Below, piece by piece: positions 4,342 through 13,809 of a stretch of DNA of 13,809 bases. The stretch is from Enterospora canceri (taxonomy: Eukaryota; Microsporidia; Enterocytozoonidae), in NCBI GenBank assembly GCA_002087915.1, contig LWDP01000058.1:1-13809 (forward strand), in the 5' to 3' direction. The first letter of the stretch is position 1. Each line of letters starts with the position of its first letter. Under the pieces are notes generated by a model. That model made no database searches, was not told the origin of the DNA, and saw only the letters and a list, made by a program, of their open reading frames with translations. The position numbers were made by a program, and so were the translations under genes.

Positions 4342-5109
4342 ATGCTACTGCAAAATTTCAGTATTTCTAGAATCAATCACATGAAAGGTTTGATTGTTGT
4401 GGTAGGAGAAATGGAAGGAAAACAATTCGTATATCTTATTGATAATACGAGCAGCCTTGAGAAGTTGAGCAACGATATTATTCTCGATCAAATTGATGGA
4501 AAAAGAATGGAACCTAAAAGTGCTAAATTTGCTACAAACGTAACATTCAGAACAACATTAGCGTATCCAGCAACAGAGAAGGATGTCAACAAGTATTTTA
4601 ATGAGAACAAGTACATCAAAGAAAGCCACGAAAACTATTGTAAGCAGAATATTGTCACAGATATTCCTTGGATTGATCAAATATTTATGAATGAAGTCAA
4701 TACTAAAACTGGACCAAATTATTATATGGATGCCAATTTGGTGGTTACTACGGATTACAAGTGGAATGGAAACGTAGATGAGTTATATCTGCTCTGTATC
4801 TTCAAAGATGAAAAATACAAGTCACTACGTAATTTGGACAAATGCGACCTGAATCTGCTGAAATCAACACGAACCAAAATTCACTCAATTTTAAAGGAGA
4901 CGTTTGGCCTAAGCAAAGAGGATGCGGTACTCTTCTTCCACTACAGACCATCGTACTACAAGCTACACATTCACATCGTAAACATCAGCAAGTCAAAACT
5001 GTGTCTCTACAACTGTAGAAGAAATGTCTATTTGGACGATGTCATTCGCAATATCGAGAACTACGATGATTATTATAAGCATGATATGCATTTGATAAGC
5101 AATGCATAA
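4342..5109 (+). CDS. DCS1: Scavenger mRNA decapping enzyme, DcpS/DCS1 HIT family
   Basis: A 255-residue protein with the two-part plan of DcpS: an N-terminal swapped-dimer region, then a HIT hydrolase domain. DcpS hydrolyses the m7G cap left on short oligonucleotides after 3'-5' mRNA decay. The C-terminal segment FFHYRPSYYKLHIHIVNI (about 198-215) matches the family signature HxxPSYYHLHxHxxxL. The central and last histidines of the triad are present (H209, H211), but the first is replaced by lysine at 207. NLVVTTDYKWNG (132-143) matches the strand leading into the HIT fold, and the end, with DVIRNIENYDDYY, matches the family's LxxVIxNLE..xxYY helix. The start is set by the CCCC three bases upstream. 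The gene is divergent from NFS1 (104-base gap) and converges on the membrane-protein gene with 16 bases between stops. Confidence 0.88.
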   Translation: MLLQNFSISRINHMKGLIVVVGEMEGKQFVYLIDNTSSLEKLSNDIILDQIDGKRMEPKSAKFATNVTFRTTLAYPATEKDVNKYFNENKYIKESHENYCKQNIVTDIPWIDQIFMNEVNTKTGPNYYMDANLVVTTDYKWNGNVDELYLLCIFKDEKYKSLRNLDKCDLNLLKSTRTKIHSILKETFGLSKEDAVLFFHYRPSYYKLHIHIVNISKSKLCLYNCRRNVYLDDVIRNIENYDDYYKHDMHLISNA

Positions 5110-5125
5110 TTTATTCACAGTTGAT

Positions 5126-6058
5126 TCAGATCTTCAGGTCTCTTCCAACAAGATGCTTGAATTCACTCACTGAAATATTAGAAGAGTCGTCTTCCTTCTG
5201 TTTCTTATCAGTATGCTTGTTTTCATTCAGCTTTTTCTTTACTGGCTCAAAATCATCTTCATCTGGTTTGTCTGTGATGAAGATCATCAATGAGATCCCA
5301 TATAACTCAGCCAAATTGGAGAATATCCTAATAAAGCACGTGACTTCCTTGGCAATCTGTGTGTAATCATTATCCAACATTGAAGATAGTTGTATAAATG
5401 TTATTCTGTATATTATTTCCAGAATCATCGCTATTAGAATATAGCACATTCCCATTTTCCAGCTCTTAAGCAGTCTTTCTATACCAAATTTGTCTACAAT
5501 CATCTGCTCCTTGATCTCTTTCTTGAACCACTCTATCAGGTACAATACGTACATTGATATTAGTATGATTCCAATTGCCTCAGAAATATCAAATGCCTGA
5601 AATGCAACTACAAACAGCGTATAGTCTGTACCAGCTATGTTCATAAGTCCACCTAAAATGAACATTCTAAAAATGTTGTATCCAACCAGTGCATTTGCCT
5701 TAAATGTGTTGTCTTTGAATCCAAATTCCTTCAATTTGTCTAAGTCATTCAGAAATATCTTAAATGGATACATCACACACGTTTTGGTGGCTGCCTCCAG
5801 AATCAGCTGTGCCTGCTTCAGTTTCAGGAAACTCACGTTTGCATCAAATTCCCATAAGTTGTGCCTATAGGCCGCCTTTAGTGCCACAAAGCAGTAGGCT
5901 AAGTTCATGAAGAGGAGACAGAGTACACCAGTCTGCAATCCAATCTTCTCTTTGGTTACGTCACTCTGGTTCTGAATTTTCCCAATGAAGTAGAGAATGA
6001 AGACGACGTAAACCACCATCATCAACAGTATTACAATTGGTTCCAGGTTGATGATCAT
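5126..6058 (-). CDS. Polytopic membrane protein of unknown function
   Basis: A protein of 310 residues with roughly six hydrophobic segments. In order, they are centred on ILLMMVVYVVFILYFI, VLCLLFMNLAYCFVAL, YNIFRMFILGGLMNIAG, AIGIILISMYVLYLIEW, MCYILIAMILEIIY and AELYGISLMIFIT. The last 55 or so residues are hydrophilic, rich in Lys, Asp and Glu, and presumably cytosolic. I do not recognise a family; it may be microsporidia-specific. The reading frame extends upstream to a TTG at 6103, but the first ATG is at 6058. No CCC element precedes it, so the start is less sure than for its neighbours, and a methionine pair about 12 codons further in is an alternative. Stop is TGA. It is convergent with the DcpS gene and divergent from the snoRNA-like array. 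Confidence 0.7.
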   Translation of the reverse strand: MIINLEPIVILLMMVVYVVFILYFIGKIQNQSDVTKEKIGLQTGVLCLLFMNLAYCFVALKAAYRHNLWEFDANVSFLKLKQAQLILEAATKTCVMYPFKIFLNDLDKLKEFGFKDNTFKANALVGYNIFRMFILGGLMNIAGTDYTLFVVAFQAFDISEAIGIILISMYVLYLIEWFKKEIKEQMIVDKFGIERLLKSWKMGMCYILIAMILEIIYRITFIQLSSMLDNDYTQIAKEVTCFIRIFSNLAELYGISLMIFITDKPDEDDFEPVKKKLNENKHTDKKQKEDDSSNISVSEFKHLVGRDLKI

Positions 6059-6150
6059 ACTGTCCAAATATCTCAGACTAAAATAAAACAACTTCTGACA
6101 CAATCAAAACAGACACAACATGATGGATAATCCACCCATCTCTTTTTTTC

Positions 6151-6176
6151 TATAAATTTTGTGCTAATTTTACCCC
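6151..6176 (+). promoter_or_regulatory. Putative promoter of the snoRNA-like array: TATA-like box plus TTTTACCCC initiator
   Basis: TATAAA at 6151-6156 is followed by TGCTAATTTTACCCC at 6162-6176. A near-identical TGCAAATTTTACCC lies at 8421-8434, upstream of the isolated C/D unit. The distance from the end of ACCC to the first C box is 82 bases here and 78 there. The same TTTTACCCC-type element precedes protein-gene starts, which suggests these RNAs use the ordinary mRNA-type initiation signal. A 44-codon ORF at 6185 is the competing explanation. Confidence 0.5.
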
Positions 6177-6184
6177 ATGGCGAG

Positions 6185-6319
6185 ATGCTATTCAGAGTCT
6201 TTTGTTTAGTTGGCCATCTTGTGCTTGCTTTTAGCACTACAATAACCATGGCTGGGATGAAGAGATATTTGCTAGGGGTGATTGTTGATCATAATAGCTA
6301 TCTGACCAGTTCTATTTAA
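6185..6319 (+). CDS. Possible 44-residue peptide with signal-like N-terminus (doubtful)
   Basis: An ATG at 6185 lies eight bases after CCCC and opens 44 codons to a TAA at 6317-6319. The first 18 residues (MLFRVFCLVGHLVLAFST) look like a signal peptide. The promoter-like context is as good as that of several real genes here. Against it, the second half overlaps snoRNA-like unit A (6252-6309), whose box and stem pattern explains the sequence better. An earlier ATG directly after CCCC at 6177 gives only 10 codons. It is listed because a gene this short is easily missed, not because it is likely. Confidence 0.2.
   Translation: MLFRVFCLVGHLVLAFSTTITMAGMKRYLLGVIVDHNSYLTSSI
6252..6309 (+). ncRNA. 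C/D-box snoRNA-like unit A
   Basis: Terminal stem CTGG (6252-6255) pairs with CCAG (6306-6309). The C box is ATGAAGA at 6257-6263 (one mismatch to RTGATGA), and the D box is CTGA at 6302-6305. The C-to-D span is 49 nt, the same as unit B. The antisense element next to D would be GATCATAATAGCTAT. The one-base C-box mismatch lowers confidence, but the stem and spacing match the other units. It is the first unit after the TATA/ACCCC element. Confidence 0.5.
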
Positions 6320-6436
6320 TAAATCGGTATTGTATGGGGTTGATATGGGTAAATGTGAATAGTCGAGGATAAACGCGATTTATGTTGTAACAAGAAAACA
6401 AATTGATCCGTTTGGAAGAAGAGTGTGCACTATCTG

Positions 6437-6494
6437 CTGGAATGATGACTAACAGTTCACTCGGTTAACTTTGACGATAAACATGTCTGACCAG
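6437..6494 (+). ncRNA. C/D-box snoRNA-like unit B
   Basis: Stem CTGG (6437-6440) pairs with CCAG (6491-6494). A perfect C box ATGATGA lies at 6442-6448 and a D box CTGA at 6487-6490, with a C-to-D span of 49 nt and total length of 58 nt. The sequence before D (GACGATAAACATGT) is the candidate rRNA- or snRNA-pairing guide; the target nucleotide would pair with the fifth base upstream of D. No target could be confirmed by eye. Confidence 0.68.
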
Positions 6495-6499
6495 GAACA

Positions 6500-6566
6500 A
6501 TGATGAATACACTGCTTCTGAAAAAGAAGGAAATTAATTTGTAACATTGATCAATAATAAGTCTGA
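6500..6566 (+). ncRNA. C/D-box snoRNA-like unit C, atypical
   Basis: C box ATGATGA lies at 6500-6506, a D'-like CTGA at 6518-6521 and a D box CTGA at 6563-6566. The span is 67 nt, longer than the other units, and I see no terminal stem between the flanks. Candidate guides are AATACACTGCTT (before D') and ATCAATAATAAGT (before D). It sits only five bases after unit B and immediately before unit D. It may be a real unit with an open terminus or a degenerate copy. Confidence 0.4.
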
Positions 6567-6567
6567 T

Positions 6568-6627
6568 CTAGAATGATGATAAATAATAACTTCCTGCTAA
6601 TTAGTGAAGAAAAATAACTCTGACTAG
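6568..6627 (+). ncRNA. C/D-box snoRNA-like unit D
   Basis: Self-complementary CTAG at both ends (6568-6571 and 6624-6627) forms the stem. C box ATGATGA lies at 6573-6579 and D box CTGA at 6620-6623, a span of 51 nt. Internal D'-like CTGC (6594-6597) and C'-like GTGAAGA (6604-6610) are present in the correct order. Candidate guides are TAATAACTTC (D') and AAAATAACT (D). Confidence 0.6.
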
Positions 6628-6684
6628 CATGTAACAATTTTAGTGATCAGTTATCACAAAATATTCAGACTGGTTTTAAGTCAC

Positions 6685-6749
6685 AATCAGGAATGATGAC
6701 CAAAGTCTAGAAGAAATGATAGATGAGTATGAAATAGTCTGACCTGATT
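6685..6749 (+). ncRNA. C/D-box snoRNA-like unit E, strongest stem
   Basis: Seven perfect stem pairs, AATCAGG (6685-6691) with CCTGATT (6743-6749), bracket C box ATGATGA (6693-6699) and D box CTGA (6739-6742), a span of 50 nt. This stem differs in sequence from those of units A, B and D yet still pairs, which favours a conserved structure over copies of one repeat. The candidate guide before D is GAGTATGAAATAGT. It is separated from unit D by 57 bases, in which I see only a small hairpin (GTGAT/ATCAC). Confidence 0.7.
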
Positions 6750-7054
6750 ACTTTATCCAGACATGAGAATTGATTTGTCTTTCGTTTTTGTGTTCCTGTA
6801 AATATGTGTTGTTAACACAAAAAAGAGACTGTGATTTGGAGAAAGCTACAATTGATCTTTTAGACACCTGATGAGTGTTTTCATCACCTTAATGGGTATG
6901 AGTAATGTCAGAAAGACTTTAAATATCTTAAGTAAAGGATTGGTGTTATTCACTCTTACAGAGACAATTACAATTTTAATTCAAGCTATCAGTGTCTCAA
7001 TGAGAAGTCTAAACAGGATGCAATATCTCTCTAATCAATAAGCATTTATTTAGC

Positions 7055-8253
7055 TTAGGCTGGAACTGGTACACCATAATGTCTTAGTAATTTGGCTTCT
7101 TTTTCTATATATGAAAATAGCTTTTCCCTTGAATACCTCAGTGGTGCTTCAAAACCGGTGATTCCCAATGAAACCTTACATTGGTCCAAGAAGTTCCCGT
7201 ACACAATGTAATCAAAATCATTATCTAGAAACACGCAGCTTATTGTGATGTGTTCCAAAAGTTTCTCCATTTTTCCTGATTTGAAATCCACGTTCTTCTT
7301 TGATTGTGCATCCTTCATAAATTCAAGAAATGTATTTAGGAATTGCTTGAGTTTTGCCGTAACAAGTGTTTTGTATTTCATCCCCACAAATTGATCTCGT
7401 ATTATCTTAAGAGTTGGTTTATCTTTTTTCATTAAATTATCATTGTGAAATGGTAATGGAAACAAGTAGTGCATGTAGTAGACATCATTCATGAAGAAGT
7501 CGTAGTTTGCTGGATCATATTTCAAAAATTGATCTGATGTTAAATCGTGCTCAGTCATGAATCCCTTTTGGAACCAGAAGTTGTACAAATCCACATTGTA
7601 CTCCATAATCAGCAGAAAATGGAGTTTTAAGCTTTGTTCCCCTATGGTTCTGTTCATCTCTACCACATCATTTTCTATTTTATTCAGGTTGTTTATAATG
7701 AAATTGTCCTTTGCACACGTCTTCAAATATTCCTTCGCTGTTTGTATTCTGCTGATTCTATTCGATTTCTTCAATCCATAATAATCTCTGTTGTTTGGTT
7801 GTGCATAAGTTTGAATTGTTATTATTGGTCTCTTAAACCTCTCCAAATCAACTTTTCTTTCCTTCTGCACCACCTTGAAATCTACTTCAGCCTTTTCCTT
7901 CATTTCCTTCAACTTTCTCTGATATTCTTCCAGCTCCTTTTACTTCCTAATTCTCTTTTCCTGATTCCTCTTCTCTCTTTCTTTCCATTCTGCCATCACC
8001 TTTGTATTGTCATCTGCTTCTTCAAGTTCATGTTCATAGGCCAAATAGTCATTTTCTCCTCAAGCTTCTGAGTTGGTTTCTTGATTGTTTTTGTTGTTGC
8101 TTTCTCTGTTCCTGTTTTCTCCTTCTCCATTTCATTTTTCATTACCTGAACTTTCTTAAGAACCATCCAAATTACGACTGATGCAACTGCTGCTACCACA
8201 GCAGTAATGATTCCCAGTACCATGAAGAAGACATAATCACTCTTTATCTTCAT
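7055..8253 (-). pseudogene. Membrane-anchored charged protein of unknown function, frameshifted and stopped
   Basis: The ATG at 8253 opens a frame starting MKIKSDYVFFMVLGII. It has one transmembrane segment at about residues 7-31 (hydrophobic, Ala/Val-rich) followed by a Lys/Glu-rich stretch. That frame runs to a TGA at 7996, but the likely coding sequence leaves it near the T4 run at 8052-8055 (A4 on the coding strand), where one extra A would keep it open. It continues as DYLAYEHELEEADD, then a charged coiled-coil-like region (KEREKRNQEKRIRK). It next meets an in-frame TAA at 7940-7942 and then reads on for about 300 residues to the TAA at 7055. The restored length would be about 400 residues. 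The C-terminal part is folded-looking and is not recognised. Two lesions suggest a decaying gene, though low-quality sequence could produce both. Confidence 0.65.
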
Positions 8254-8420
8254 AAGGTTCCACAATATTTTTTAATTTATCTAAAATTGATTGGTTGAAA
8301 CACATTACCCGTTTGAGTTTATATTGAGATTCAATTAGTTAGTCAACTAGGCGCATCTTGAATAATGAGCTGATCAATATTACGCCTTCTATTCTCAAAA
8401 TGTCGAGTACTTGAAAATAA

Positions 8421-8434
8421 TGCAAATTTTACCC
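8421..8434 (+). promoter_or_regulatory. TGCAAATTTTACCC motif upstream of the isolated C/D unit
   Basis: Matches TGCTAATTTTACCC at 6162-6175 at 13 of 14 positions. It lies 78 bases before a C box, against 82 at the other site. No ORF with a nearby ATG follows it, so it is not explained as a protein-gene start signal. Confidence 0.5.
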
Positions 8435-8504
8435 ATTAATTTCTGACTAATAAATTCACTAAAAGACAAAGAAGAATGAACTGATTGAGTGCTATCTCGT
8501 AACA

Positions 8505-8567
8505 AACTGGAATGATGATTATGATTGGTGTTGCGGATTCGTGAAGTTAATGCCCTTCTGACCAGTT
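8505..8567 (+). ncRNA. C/D-box snoRNA-like unit F, isolated copy
   Basis: Six perfect stem pairs, AACTGG (8505-8510) with CCAGTT (8562-8567), bracket C box ATGATGA (8512-8518) and D box CTGA (8558-8561), a span of 50 nt. A C'-like GTGAAGT lies at 8541-8547. The candidate guide next to D is TAATGCCCTT. Between the boxes it shares little with the array units, as expected of RNAs with different targets rather than copies of a repeat. Confidence 0.72.
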
Positions 8568-8678
8568 ATCTACCACTCGTTCATATTGTAATATTTGATA
8601 AATGTGTCTGTACAGTTATTCTAGCACTATATTCGGTCAGTCAATTTGTCCTAACATTCTTTTCCTAATTTAACACAT

Positions 8679-8682
8679 CCCC
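8679..8682 (+). promoter_or_regulatory. CCCC initiation signal for DNA polymerase kappa
   Basis: CCCC lies ten bases before the ATG at 8693, preceded by CTAATTTAACACAT. The spacing is longer than at other genes here. Confidence 0.4.
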
Positions 8683-8692
8683 AATTCAACGA

Positions 8693-10231
8693 ATGGTAGA
8701 GGGTGTGAAATTCACAGTAGTAAACAGTACAGGAGAGCTGTTTGAGGAGAACGAGGAACAGAGAATGTTCGCAGTGCACGAGAAAGCAGAGAATTTGAGA
8801 CAAAAATACGCAGAACGAGTTGAAGAAATTCAGGCAGCACGAAATTACGTGGATATGGATATGGAAATAGACAAATTGAAAATGGCATGGCCAGCTCTCT
8901 TTGGACTTGATGATCCCGATGAATTCTACGTCCACGTTGATTTGGACAGCTACTACGCATCCGTTGAAACACTATTGAATCCAAAACTAAAGGATGTTCC
9001 ACTTGCAGTTGGAAGCATGGCAATGATTGCAACAAGCAACTACAAAGCAAGAGAATATAACGTAAAGGCAGGTATGCCAGGGTATCACGCTAAGAAACTC
9101 TGTCCTCATCTTGTTATAATACCACCACAAATGAATCAGTACAATTATTATTCTGAAGTGATCATGGAAATATTAAGCTGTTACGACACTCAGATTGAAA
9201 TATACGGAATTGATGAGTCGTGTATGGTATTCAATGAGGATAAATTAGTTCAGGCCTATGAATATCACAACAGTACAAATGCTAAAAATGATCAGATAAA
9301 ATATGGTGGATTCAATACCACCAGTATATCAAAATTAGTAGAAAAAATACGACAAACAGTCTACAACAAAACAAAACTAACAATCAGTGCAGGAATATCA
9401 CTATGTAGAGGTCACGCAAAGTTTGCATCCAACATAAACAAGCCAAATGGACAACTGTGTATTATAGACAATTTTGATCAATACATATTAAACCTACCCT
9501 GTGACAAAATAAATGGGATTGGGAAAATGACCAAATTGCGGCTGTCGAAGACGTTTCAAGTGACAACAGTGGCTGATTTACGAAACAAACATGCAGAATG
9601 TGCGTTGGTCTTTCCAACCAAAACATTTCTGAATGTGTTCAGGTTGTCATTTGGGTTCTCTCAATTTGATTTCGCACATTCATCAAAATACAACAGCAAC
9701 TTCAAATCAATTGGAAACAGCTACACAATCAGAAAAACAACGAGCTATGTCGAAACAGTGCAACGACTGTACGAGATATCGCAACAAGTGTGGCAAAGAA
9801 TGAAGAAATGTGACATGTATGGAATGGTGGTGACTCTTGTGATAAAATATAGCACATTTAAGCTTGTTACACGGAGGAAGAAGATTAATTTTGTGATGAA
9901 AAGGCACAGAGAACTCTTTGAGACAGTGGTAGAGCTGTTACAGGAGAATGTGGTGATGAATGAGAGCAAAATGAAGGTAGTGGACGAGGAAATCAGGATG
10001 CTGGGCGTAACTGTAAGTGACTTATCAAAACGAAGCAACCTGAAGACATTAGAGGAATTTGTGGTGGAAAAGAAGGCAATAGATCCACGGAAGTGTTTCC
10101 TGTGCCAGAAGCTGTTTCTTCACGAATCAGATGTTGTATTCGAGTCACACGTAAACAGGTGCGTAGACAAGGCAGAACGAGACGAAAAAGAAGCCAAAAA
10201 GAGAATCGACTATTATATAAGGAAGAAATAG
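8693..10231 (+). CDS. POLK: Y-family translesion DNA polymerase kappa with UBZ zinc finger
   Basis: A 512-residue DinB/Pol kappa-type polymerase that copies past damaged template bases in the nucleus. An N-terminal helical extension of about 75 residues (the N-clasp that marks kappa) precedes the palm. HVDLDSYYASVE (81-92) carries metal-binding D83, and YGIDES (171-176) carries D174 and E175. The fingers segment AIATSNYKAREYNVKAGMPGYHA-like region is at about 111-133, and the helix-hairpin-helix INGIGKM at 273-279. A little-finger domain follows to about 450. The end has a C2HC finger (C468, C471, H486, C490) of the UBZ4/Rad18 type, which in human Pol kappa binds ubiquitinated PCNA. The last residues, RIDYYIRKK, loosely recall a PCNA-binding motif. 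All catalytic acids are present and the frame is intact. It converges on uL14 with 16 bases between stops. Confidence 0.93.
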   Translation: MVEGVKFTVVNSTGELFEENEEQRMFAVHEKAENLRQKYAERVEEIQAARNYVDMDMEIDKLKMAWPALFGLDDPDEFYVHVDLDSYYASVETLLNPKLKDVPLAVGSMAMIATSNYKAREYNVKAGMPGYHAKKLCPHLVIIPPQMNQYNYYSEVIMEILSCYDTQIEIYGIDESCMVFNEDKLVQAYEYHNSTNAKNDQIKYGGFNTTSISKLVEKIRQTVYNKTKLTISAGISLCRGHAKFASNINKPNGQLCIIDNFDQYILNLPCDKINGIGKMTKLRLSKTFQVTTVADLRNKHAECALVFPTKTFLNVFRLSFGFSQFDFAHSSKYNSNFKSIGNSYTIRKTTSYVETVQRLYEISQQVWQRMKKCDMYGMVVTLVIKYSTFKLVTRRKKINFVMKRHRELFETVVELLQENVVMNESKMKVVDEEIRMLGVTVSDLSKRSNLKTLEEFVVEKKAIDPRKCFLCQKLFLHESDVVFESHVNRCVDKAERDEKEAKKRIDYYIRKK

Positions 10232-10763: not shown

Positions 10764-11909
10764 TTACTTCTTTCCCTTTGGAACATTGGCCTTAAAGTGT
10801 AGGATGTCACCGTCCTTAACAACGTAGTCTTTTCCCTTTTGCATAAACTTGCCTTTCTCTTTCATTTTCACCTCAGATGGATTCTCCTTGAAATCCCCGT
10901 ATTCCATGACATCAGCACACACAAAATACTTCTCGAAGTCGCCGTGTATCACTCCAGCAGCCTCTGGTGCCTTCATTCCCCTTCGTATTGTCCAGCTCTT
11001 TACTTCATCTTTTCCTACTGTAAAATAACTTATCAAATCAAGTGTTTCGAAACCATAGGAGACCAGTTTCTTTATCACGTCCCCATCTATGAATTTGCTG
11101 CAGAGAACTATCGTATTCTCTTTGTATTGGTCCAGGACAGCCTTCAGGTGCTTATTTCCCTTACGCTCCTTGTAGTGCTTCTCAGATATGTTTGCTATGA
11201 CTGTAACTCGCTTAGTAGTCAGAAGATTCGTTGTGTTGATGAATTCAACATCTTCAGAAGTCCACTCCGCCTCACTGATGAACTTCTCTTTGAGGACTTC
11301 AATCATTTTATCACACAGCTGCACGTGCATTTGGAGCTTCTTGTTGTGTGGATCAGCTCATGCCACTTTCTCAGCTCTGAATTTCACTTTTCCTATCAAT
11401 TCAACATCTTTTAGTCTCAATTCCTCCTTGATCGTGTTGATATCTCGAATTGGATCAATATTGCCGTCAATATGAGTTATTTCTGAGTCAGTGAAGCAAC
11501 GTACGACCAGAAAAATGCCGTCTACTCTTCTTATGTGTTCTAGAAACTGATTTCCAAGGCCAATGCCTTCTGAAGAACCTTTGACCAGTCCAGCGATGTC
11601 TACGATCGTAAGAGTGGCATTACAGATCTTCTTTGGCTTGTATGTACTGCTAAGGAACTCAATGCGTTCATCTTCAATCTTGAGAATGCCGTGGTGAGGA
11701 TCTTTGGTGCAAAATGCAAAATTTTCAGCTCGTACAGCCGAATTGGTCAATGCATTAAACAAGGTGCTCTTTCCAACATTGGGCAGCCCAACTAGGCCAA
11801 TTGATAGGCCACTTGTTTTGTTTGGCCTGGCAAACAGCTTGACAATCTGCGCCTTGGATGACAATTCTTTTTTGATTGATTTTTTAACATCTTTGAATTC
11901 TGTGTTCAT
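10764..11909 (-). pseudogene. OLA1: OLA1/YchF family P-loop ATPase, interrupted by an in-frame TGA
   Basis: One continuous 381-codon frame with a single TGA at 11358-11360 (codon 184). The N-terminal half has G1 GLPNVGKST (41-49), FCTKDP with the switch I Thr, G3 DIAGLVKGSSEGIGLGNQFL (about 104-123) and THIDGNIDPIRDI. The C-terminal half has G4-equivalent NISE (240-243), which marks the ATP-preferring OLA1 subfamily, and the TGS-like domain with YFTVGKDEVKSWTIRRGMKAPEAAGVIHGDFEK. OLA1/YchF binds ribosomes and affects translation and stress responses. Total length fits human and yeast OLA1, so nothing else is missing. The stop falls in a variable linker (KVA-stop-ADPHNKK), where other eukaryotes have unconserved residues. 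A sequencing error, a nonsense allele or readthrough are all possible. The ATG at 11909 is the first in frame; no CCC element is seen. It is divergent from TFIIF beta by 124 bases. Confidence 0.9.
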
Positions 11910-12018
11910 GAATAAGGCATCACAGGAAAATAATTTATATACAGCCACTGATCAATATTGATTAAATAGTTACTGCTATTCAATCAGACAGAGTACCTGA
12001 AAATATCAGAATTCCAGT

Positions 12019-12266
12019 ATTGAACCCCAGTTTATGCCTAAGGAAATCAATAGAAATTCAACCAGAGCATTTCTAGTCAAAATGCCAAAGTATCTCAGCA
12101 ACCAAATAAAGGAATGTCTAGAGAATGAGACAATTGGTCATGTGAAGCTGGATATGACCACATCTGACACAGAAGCAGAAATAAGATTCAATAGAAGATT
12201 CAAGCCAAGTCAATACAAGTTTATGCAAAGAAGTATGGGTAAAAAAGACAAACAGGCAGTTTCCTT
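12019..12266 (+). repeat. 248-bp exact duplicate, left copy (assembly overlap at the n)
   Basis: Identical to 12268-12515, with a single n at 12267 between the copies. The duplicated length plus the n is 249 bases, so the frame is unchanged, but 83 codons of TFIIF beta appear twice. Exact identity flanking a one-base gap is the mark of two contigs joined without merging their overlap. Confidence 0.92.
12025..12028 (+). promoter_or_regulatory. CCCC initiation signal for the TFIIF beta gene
   Basis: TTGAACCCCAGTTTATG places CCCC five bases before the ATG at 12034, the same spacing as in uL14. Confidence 0.5.
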
Positions 12267-12669
12267 NATTGAACCCCAGTTTATGCCTAAGGAAATCAAT
12301 AGAAATTCAACCAGAGCATTTCTAGTCAAAATGCCAAAGTATCTCAGCAACCAAATAAAGGAATGTCTAGAGAATGAGACAATTGGTCATGTGAAGCTGG
12401 ATATGACCACATCTGACACAGAAGCAGAAATAAGATTCAATAGAAGATTCAAGCCAAGTCAATACAAGTTTATGCAAAGAAGTATGGGTAAAAAAGACAA
12501 ACAGGCAGTTTCCTTAGAAGGAAATCGAATCCCACTCTATGAACTAAGCAGAATGATGACAGTACAGCCAGAAATGAATGATGAGTACTTTCAGTTCAAG
12601 AGGGCTCTACAGCAAACCAGTACTAGGGCAACCCAGGAATTGTGCGTTTTTTACTCCTCCGAAACATGA
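12034..12669 (+). pseudogene. TFG2: TFIIF beta subunit (RAP30/Tfg2), truncated by a transposon and duplicated by assembly
   Basis: After removing one copy of the 248-base overlap, the product is 128 residues. RAFLVKMPKYLSNQIKECL (about 11-29) matches the RAP30 LVKVPKYLSQQW segment, then comes the GHVKLDM/EAEIRFN dimerisation strands, and LEGNRIPLYELSRMMT...EYFQFKRAL matches the family LEGxxxxRxECRPxxxxxYMxLKR. This is the TFIIF alpha-contact domain of the Pol II initiation factor. The C-terminal winged-helix half, expected in a protein of about 250 residues, is absent. Near residue 112 the sequence turns into what looks like a hAT transposon end, and the last 16 or so codons (to the TGA at 12667) are non-native. 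The start is supported by CCCC five bases upstream. Confidence 0.75.
12268..12515 (+). repeat. 248-bp exact duplicate, right copy (assembly overlap at the n)
   Basis: The second copy of 12019-12266. It runs on without a break into the rest of TFIIF beta and the transposon, so the TFIIF-transposon junction lies within one contig. Confidence 0.92.
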
Positions 12670-13043
12670 GTAAATATTGTTTGTTTGTTGTCGAATGTCT
12701 GTATATTAATTTTAGGGGTTAACCAACATGGCATTTTAAATATTTTATTTGTTTACTTCTCGCTTTTTGTCATTCTCCATTACATGTTAAAAAACCTTGA
12801 ATTTTATACTAAATGGGACAATCAAAAAAAGTAAGGTTGCAAAGATAGCTGAATTGGTCAGTTTAGAACCAGAAACGCTTTTTTCGGTATTAAACAGATT
12901 TCTGTTTTGCTGTGCGTGTAGAACTGACATCAAATCCCTTACATCAAGGGATGTCAGGCGACACATTGGGTCAATATTACATAAAAATAATGTTTTATGT
13001 ACTAGACTCAATGTGTTATCTACAAAAACTTATCAAAACGATA

Positions 13044-13122
13044 GGTTGGTCGCGAAAACTGTTACGAAAGGTTTTCTAGAAGCTGATATTCCTCTCTACA
13101 AGCTTCGAATAGATTCTATCAA
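13044..13122 (+). repeat. 79-bp exact duplicate, left copy (assembly overlap at the n)
   Basis: Identical to 13124-13202, with one n at 13123 between. Removing one copy plus the n deletes 80 bases and brings the two transposase reading frames into register, which supports an assembly join rather than a biological repeat. Confidence 0.92.
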
Positions 13123-13123
13123 N

Positions 13124-13202
13124 GGTTGGTCGCGAAAACTGTTACGAAAGGTTTTCTAGAAGCTGATATTCCTCTCTACAAGCTTCGAATAGATTCTATC
13201 AA
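13124..13202 (+). repeat. 79-bp exact duplicate, right copy (assembly overlap at the n)
   Basis: The second copy of 13044-13122, continuing into the catalytic core of the transposase. Confidence 0.92.
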
Positions 13203-13809
13203 ACGTATGTTTGACGATCTGGCCGTTGGAGCTCCCAGTGAGTCGGTTTGTAGGCGCATGGTTGCTGATATTGCAACTGATCAGAAAGCGCTTATCAGGA
13301 CGCAAATATCAAACCAACAGGTCTATGTAATAATAGATGAGACTGAAAGGAAGAAACATAAGATATTTAATGTCATATGTGGTTTGATTATGCGTCCTGA
13401 TAAACGATTTCTGATTGCATCATGAGCTATCACAGGTTCGGCATGCGCAGAGATGCTAAACAGCGTAATACTTCAGGTATTTGCTGAGTATGGCTTGCGA
13501 CATGAGCAGCTTTGCCTGTTGATCACTGATGGTGCCTCCTACAACATCCGTTGGTGTCGGTTGTTCTCGGGCCATTACATCAACTGTCTGCACGTCACCT
13601 GCTTTGCGCACATCCTGCATAACATGTCTGAGGAAATATTTAGACGTGATCAGGGTGTATTGCAATTTATTGAAACGTTTAGCCACGTTTTGAGCAGGAA
13701 CCCTGAAGCTACATCATTTTTCAGGTCGCTTGGAAAGTTCGAACATCCAATACGTGTTCGGTGGGGTACACTGTTAAGGGCAACGAACTTCATCAACACC
13801 TATTTTGAT

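Follow-up and report, generated by a model that had tools for sequence, protein, structure and literature searches.

What occupies the 951-base gap at positions 6104-7054 of this DNA, a gap flanked by two ORFs on the minus strand? The stretch analysed, here called the window, comprises 13,809 nucleotides and is contig 56 (1-13809) of an assembly of 2.24 Mb in 75 contigs. Pfam matches in the window comprise an ABC transporter, a Brix protein, a class-V aminotransferase, a DcpS-like protein and a Y-family polymerase, together with uL14 and a YchF-type GTPase in two parts. By its homologues the aminotransferase is NFS1, and an earlier note on this DNA was right to call it microsporidian because the nearest named relatives of that protein are those of Ecytonucleospora hepatopenaei (74%) and Enterocytozoon bieneusi (72%). 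The same note read the gap as an array of box C/D guide RNAs. The comparisons that follow indicate that the array is very probably a box C/D snoRNA gene cluster of a microsporidian close to the Enterocytozoonidae, and it appears to add a further example to a gene set of known type.

Boxes C and D occur in order, at a spacing suited to a single small RNA, in all six units of the window (Table 1). For u1 to u5 the plus-strand order given in the earlier note was confirmed, with C boxes reading ATGATGA, once ATGAAGA (in u1), and D boxes reading CTGA; so were the C-to-D spans of 49, 49, 67, 51 and 50 nt and the stems of four units, the 67-nt unit being without one. Two features had been overlooked, namely u6 (8505-8567, stem AACTGG/CCAGTT), which lies in 8266-8692, the next largest gap between ORFs taken as genes, and a U3-like 5′ part at 6178-6256. 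A terminal stem closing the k-turn is present in five of the six window units, the exception being u3, and these stems leave one unpaired base ahead of box C and zero after box D. The C-to-D interior is mostly 35-40 nt. By eye, every window unit carries a C′-like motif 9-10 nt upstream of D; an exact internal CTGA as D′ occurs in the window only in u3, and also in v1 and v2 of a second cluster described below. The segment 6312-6435, between the putative U3 and u2, is without a recognised unit and contains GGG runs; GTAACA words recur there and near other units (by eye).

Table 1. Features of the two clusters; window coordinates unless contig 74 (C74) is given.
Feature	Location	Strand	Details
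Promoter-like signal	6166..6176	+	AATTTTACCCC (AAATTT-like + CCC-like); ends just ahead of inferred U3 start
Putative minimal U3 snoRNA	6178..6311	+	both ends inferred; Rfam U3 end-to-end at 6182-6310
Box A-like heptamer	6193..6199	+	CAGAGTC, exact complement of GACTCTG, SSU nt 10-16 of the same genome
u1	6252..6309	+	ATGAAGA 6257-6263, D 6302-6305, stem CTGG/CCAG; 3′ domain of putative U3
u2	6437..6494	+	C 6442-6448, D 6487-6490, stem CTGG/CCAG; C′-like TTGACGA 9 nt before D (by eye)
u3	6500..6566	+	C 6500-6506, internal D′ CTGA, D 6563-6566; terminal stem absent
u4	6568..6627	+	C 6573-6579, D 6620-6623, stem CTAG/CTAG; C′-like GTGAAGA (by eye)
u4 upstream guide	6585..6595	+	aataacttcct; 11 Watson-Crick pairs with LSU 1511-1521
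u4 D guide	6611..6619	+	aaaataact; 9 Watson-Crick pairs with LSU 1515-1523, +5 = A1519
u5	6685..6749	+	C 6693-6699, D 6739-6742, stem AATCAGG/CCTGATT
u5 D guide	6730..6738	+	tgaaatagt; 9 Watson-Crick pairs with SSU 1186-1194, +5 = T1190
Promoter-like signal	8425..8434	+	AATTTTACCC; upstream of u6
u6	8505..8567	+	C 8512-8518, D 8558-8561, stem AACTGG/CCAGTT; D′ CGGA-like, C′-like GTGAAGT (by eye)
v0	C74		C box ATGATGC, stem GCGAA/TTCGC (by eye), D′ CCGA
v1	C74		stem GTAGAA/TTCTAC
v2	C74		stem CCAAA/TTTGG
v3	C74		stem AGAA/TTCT

Might such motifs have matched by chance in AT-rich DNA, or be what is left of a decayed repeat? Box sequences are short, and A+T makes up 66% of the gap, yet we consider the suggestion exceedingly improbable. 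A strict form of the unit (ATGATGA, 36-42 nt, CTGA and a stem of at least 4 pairs) is found four times on the plus strand of the whole window, as u2, u4, u5 and u6 with u1 outside the set, and zero times on the minus strand; all 400 dinucleotide shuffles lack it. A looser form gives six matches on the plus strand and zero on the minus strand, where the shuffles average 0.10 and never exceed 2; its match at 5907, inside an ORF, was dropped. Genome-wide, AATGATGAN{33,45}CTGA occurs at 24 places, four of them in the window and all four with stems, and AATGATGA followed by CTGA 33-45 nt on gives the same 24 and four. Nine stem-bearing units from both clusters were then aligned by sequence over five stem pairs, leaving out the stemless u3. 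The pairs form in 93.3% of cells, a percentage favoured because the nine units were chosen for having stems; 19 cells are changed on both sides and the covariation score is 1.033. None of 500 shuffles reaches any of these three values, and slid registers are at most 53.3% paired. Pairs with a change on both sides (reached by 67 of 500 shuffles) and further pair types (222 of 500) are ordinary in number. The interiors of the units are unrelated. The strict units, the covarying stems, the unrelated interiors and a second cluster with a match to snoR38 all argue against chance or decay, and the C/D snoRNA reading is well supported.

A first C/D pattern, with 709 matches, was too loose for use, and C boxes of the GTGATGA type give 64 matches genome-wide by pattern alone. 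The 278 kb of examined loci hold 142 C/D-like places, overlaps counted, and 14 rows with stems of at least 4 Watson-Crick pairs. Eight of these are the u and v units described here; six lie elsewhere, of which two were inspected. C71:44692, with a 6-pair stem that includes two G-U, was rejected as repetitive and, by eye, an FG-type coding repeat. C14:43250 (L073:1501) is a possible solitary C/D unit in intergenic-looking DNA, its stem displaced two bases from the boxes.

Searches with Rfam at gathering thresholds returned zero families in the window. With E values up to 5, the region 6100-8700 yields 15 matches, 12 of them within 6182-6749 and all of these to C/D families on the plus strand; of the other three, SNORD52 lies at u6, an H/ACA model falls within an ORF and an IRES model covers 7024-7143. 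The best is SNORD26 at u4, with 30.5 bits (cut-off 44) and an E value of 5.4e-4. Weak matches of u5 to SNORD64 and of u2 to snR73 or SNORD101 were not accepted. Of six minimum-energy folds five are ordinary against shuffles, and that of u5 is reached by 13 of 200; folding lends the reading little support.

The second cluster, on contig 74 (L093), consists of four units in a row on one strand, v0 to v3, and the best match for each is a eukaryotic family. With 45.1 bits against a cut-off of 45, v1 lies just above the threshold for snoR38/snR38 (RF00213) and has the same, conserved D′ guide, although the match covers 62 nt compared with a model of 91 positions and v1 is off the window contig. Its D′ guide forms 12 bp with LSU 2011-2022, with +5 on G2015. 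The D′ guide of v0 is nearly identical to that of SNOR75/snR75 (RF02539, RF01185) and its D′ box is as in the SNOR75 consensus, but the unit falls far under the cut-offs (SNOR75 23.1 bits against 50, snR75 16.7 bits against 40) and its C box differs. This guide forms 10 bp with LSU 1581-1590, with +5 on G1584, and the D′ guide of v2 forms 11 bp with LSU 1692-1702, a stretch that contains the predicted methylation site A1695. Judging from the shared guides and the yeast contexts, we take the target bases of v0 and v1 to equal the yeast Gm2288 and Gm2815 sites. In yeast snR38 directs Gm2815 and snR75 directs Gm2288, according to PMC5199042 and PMC8817022.

Do the units act as guides? Seventeen guides, ten at exact D boxes and seven at D′ boxes, were compared with the rRNAs of the same genome, numbered from starts at L033:5629 and L001:1501, and with 200 rRNAs shuffled base by base. 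Nine score at least 8.7, whereas the 200 shuffled controls average 2.0 such guides and never have more than 6. The count of nine is partly post hoc because the D′ boxes of v0, v3, u4 and u6 (CCGA, CTGC, CGGA) were assigned with pairings already in view. Restricted to guides at exact D boxes, it falls to three out of ten. It is attained by four of nine window guides, the remaining five being lower, and by five of eight on contig 74. Only the D′ guides of v0, v1 and v2 and the D guide of u4 have pairings reached by at most 5 of 200 shuffles.

The pairing of the u4 D guide is reached by 5 of 200 shuffles. The upstream guide of u4, with D′ at CTGC, counts 9 bp and is reached by 12 of 200; its +5 base varies with the placement of D′, being T1517 with CTGC and A1515 with GCTA. 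By context we take its target to be the LSU region of yeast Am2220, and we assume SNORD36 to be equivalent to yeast snR47, its positions likewise. The match of u4 to SNORD36 is weak, with 24.6 bits against a cut-off of 30. The pairing of the u5 D guide with the SSU is reached by 12 of 200 shuffles. The D′ guide of u6 forms 9 bp plus one G-U and is reached by 38 of 200. No convincing rRNA target emerged for four of the D guides (u1, u2, u3 and u6) or for the D′ guide of u3, the best match of the u1 D guide being reached by 96 of 200 shuffles and the best pairing anywhere in the u2 interior by 31 of 100. A U6 gene was not found with the Rfam model or with a core motif at up to 3 mismatches. The earlier note had proposed looking for a guide with at least nine rRNA pairs. 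Such pairing is present in u4 and u5, weakly in u6 and more clearly on contig 74; guide function for u2 and u3 is not supported, no convincing rRNA target having been found for either.

These mixed results bear on whether some or all of the units are instead orphan C/D RNAs that serve rRNA processing or other RNAs and do not guide methylation. The lack of a convincing rRNA match for the D guides of u2, u3 and u6 and for the D′ guide of u3 would fit, as would the distance from C′-like motif to D, only 9-10 nt by eye. Set against this, u4 and u5 pair free of mismatches over the nine bases adjoining D, and three D′ guides on contig 74 pair with the LSU over 10 to 12 bp. We regard the orphan explanation as possible, though on the unlikely side, and retain methylation guides as the preferred reading of the guide-type units.

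The first unit stands apart. We consider u1 less likely to be a methylation guide, as the earlier note had supposed, than to form the 3′ domain of a minimal U3 snoRNA whose start lies near 6178. The Rfam U3 model (RF00012) aligns over its full length with 20.1 bits (cut-off 34; E 0.11 over 2.6 kb and all families, 0.0091 over 217 bases) and, at E up to 5, matches u1 alone among the ten units scanned. It puts its C′-type box on the ATGAAGA of u1 and its inner stem on GCTA/TAGC, giving a C′/D domain with an inner stem. The putative U3 differs from the family in falling under the cut-off, in a length of about 130 nt compared with 219 model positions and in missing most of the 3′-domain arms. The box A-like heptamer occurs once in the window, counting both strands, lies at the U3 box A position and complements the SSU 5′ end, where the usual eukaryotic sequence is GATCCTG. 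Since 244 of 5000 shuffles of the 5′ part contain a run of at least 7 pairs at some point within SSU 1-40, it is the place of box A and its change together with the SSU that carry weight. Boxes B and C are seen by eye only in degenerate form, as GGTGA and TTGATCA, the consensus being fungal (PMC5832005). The same source describes, for fungal U3, pairing of the 18S 5′ end with a 5′ hairpin that carries box A′ and part of box A. Between the U3 hinge and the 5′ external spacer, 9-bp runs lie at several places within 1500 nt upstream, scored without a control, and nothing about them is distinctive. A U3 search of the genome gave one match, of 10.6 bits on C68, and leaves a U3 elsewhere possible because the window match itself went unreported there.

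Could u1 be an ordinary methylation guide after all, the U3 likeness of 6178-6311 having arisen by chance? The modest score of the U3 match and the frequency of seven-pair runs in the shuffles would be accounted for in that way, as would a second 7-bp pairing (CATGGCT with SSU 46-52), a fold of 6178-6311 that 92 of 200 shuffles reach and a weak match of u1 to the guide family snoU54 (18.3 bits). Chance is less at ease with a full-length U3 alignment confined to u1, with a C′-type box and inner stem that fall on motifs of that unit, with a heptamer that sits at the U3-homologous place and complements the genome's own deviating SSU, and with an inferred start directly past the CCC signal; nor does the rRNA match of the u1 D guide commend it. 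An ordinary guide is in our judgement a doubtful explanation, and the minimal U3 is the one we carry forward.

According to PMC2803860, most E. cuniculi genes have a CCC-like motif immediately ahead of them, and at ribosomal-protein genes this motif follows an AAATTT-like signal, in Enterocytozoon bieneusi too. The pattern AATTTN{2,8}CCC has four plus-strand matches in the window: ahead of the ORF at 4342, of that at 8693, of the array and of u6; it thus precedes two of the three plus-strand ORFs with Pfam matches, the third being that at 12034. Over both strands there are six occurrences where 3.4 are expected, a count that alone is not unusual because 25 of 200 shuffles reach it. The motif also ends 30 bases before the C box of v0, L093 having three in total, the other two overlapping on the minus strand. 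The row may be one transcript. The term polycistronic, as used in the earlier note, is unsupported as written because its basis is one promoter-like signal and short spacers. A fuller picture, in which a U3 of about 130 nt, its box A changed in concert with a deviating SSU 5′ end, heads a polycistron with archaeal-sized guides under one promoter, is a speculative proposal, and we hold it tentatively.

Several features of the assembly are recorded as observations in their own right. The two parts of the YchF-type GTPase (10764-11948, minus strand) are N- and C-terminal frames in the same phase with a stop near 11358 between them; a split gene, a pseudogene and a sequence error are the alternatives. 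Single N letters are present at window positions 12267 and 13123 and in the frame at L033 716-5272, with adjoining sequence repeated across each; these repeats have the look of contig ends left unmerged, not of biology. One frame duplicated around an N letter is that at 12034-12669, which corresponds to the TFIIF beta N-terminus (Pfam). Plus-strand frames in 12797-13809 are transposase-like by eye, and the two tested match no Pfam family. A 5.6-kb spacer (L033:1-5628, G000:C2) separates the SSU from the LSU rRNA. It contains a frame, listed at 1518 aa and lengthened by the N-flanked duplicates, that is endonuclease- and reverse-transcriptase-like by eye and resembles a non-LTR retrotransposon inside the rRNA unit.

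The genome encodes fibrillarin, two Nop proteins and five L7Ae-family proteins, none of the last assigned to Snu13/15.5K. Each unit would form a k-turn to which an L7Ae-type protein binds, and the folded unit would recruit the Nop proteins and fibrillarin. In guide-type units the bases just before D or D′ would pair with rRNA, and the rRNA base opposite the fifth guide base is predicted to be 2′-O-methylated. As a minimal U3, 6178-6311 would use box A to pair with the SSU rRNA 5′ end during ribosome assembly, and the entire row may be transcribed from its promoter at 6166-6176.

For E. cuniculi, 10 snoRNAs are given in PMC6461891, citing Belkorchia et al. 2017. The accessible portion of the MicroAnnot paper (PMC10815200) does not contain the word snoRNA, and that of the Spraguea genome paper (PMC3749934) has it only within a reference. 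Among the matches listed in a literature search by titles and abstract starts, such a cluster in the Enterocytozoonidae was not found; a report in print is possible. With the C/D snoRNAs of other reduced eukaryotes (Encephalitozoon cuniculi, the Guillardia theta nucleomorph) the units share common C/D boxes, short genes and a small set, but here they form a tight row on the same strand with interiors of mostly 35-40 nt. The snoRNAs of E. cuniculi are reported to target only the LSU. Archaeal C/D sRNAs are similarly compact, and sR families match weakly on contig 74 and once at u5; the genome here is nevertheless eukaryotic, as is the best match of each contig 74 unit.

Microsporidian ribosomes are strongly reduced and, to our knowledge, the rRNA modifications that these organisms keep have hardly been mapped. 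C/D snoRNAs, U3 included, help to build the ribosome. With guides and targets definitely listed for one genome, microsporidian rRNA modification becomes testable by methylation sequencing, and the minimal U3, if true, would reveal which parts of U3 are kept by a eukaryote under strong reduction.
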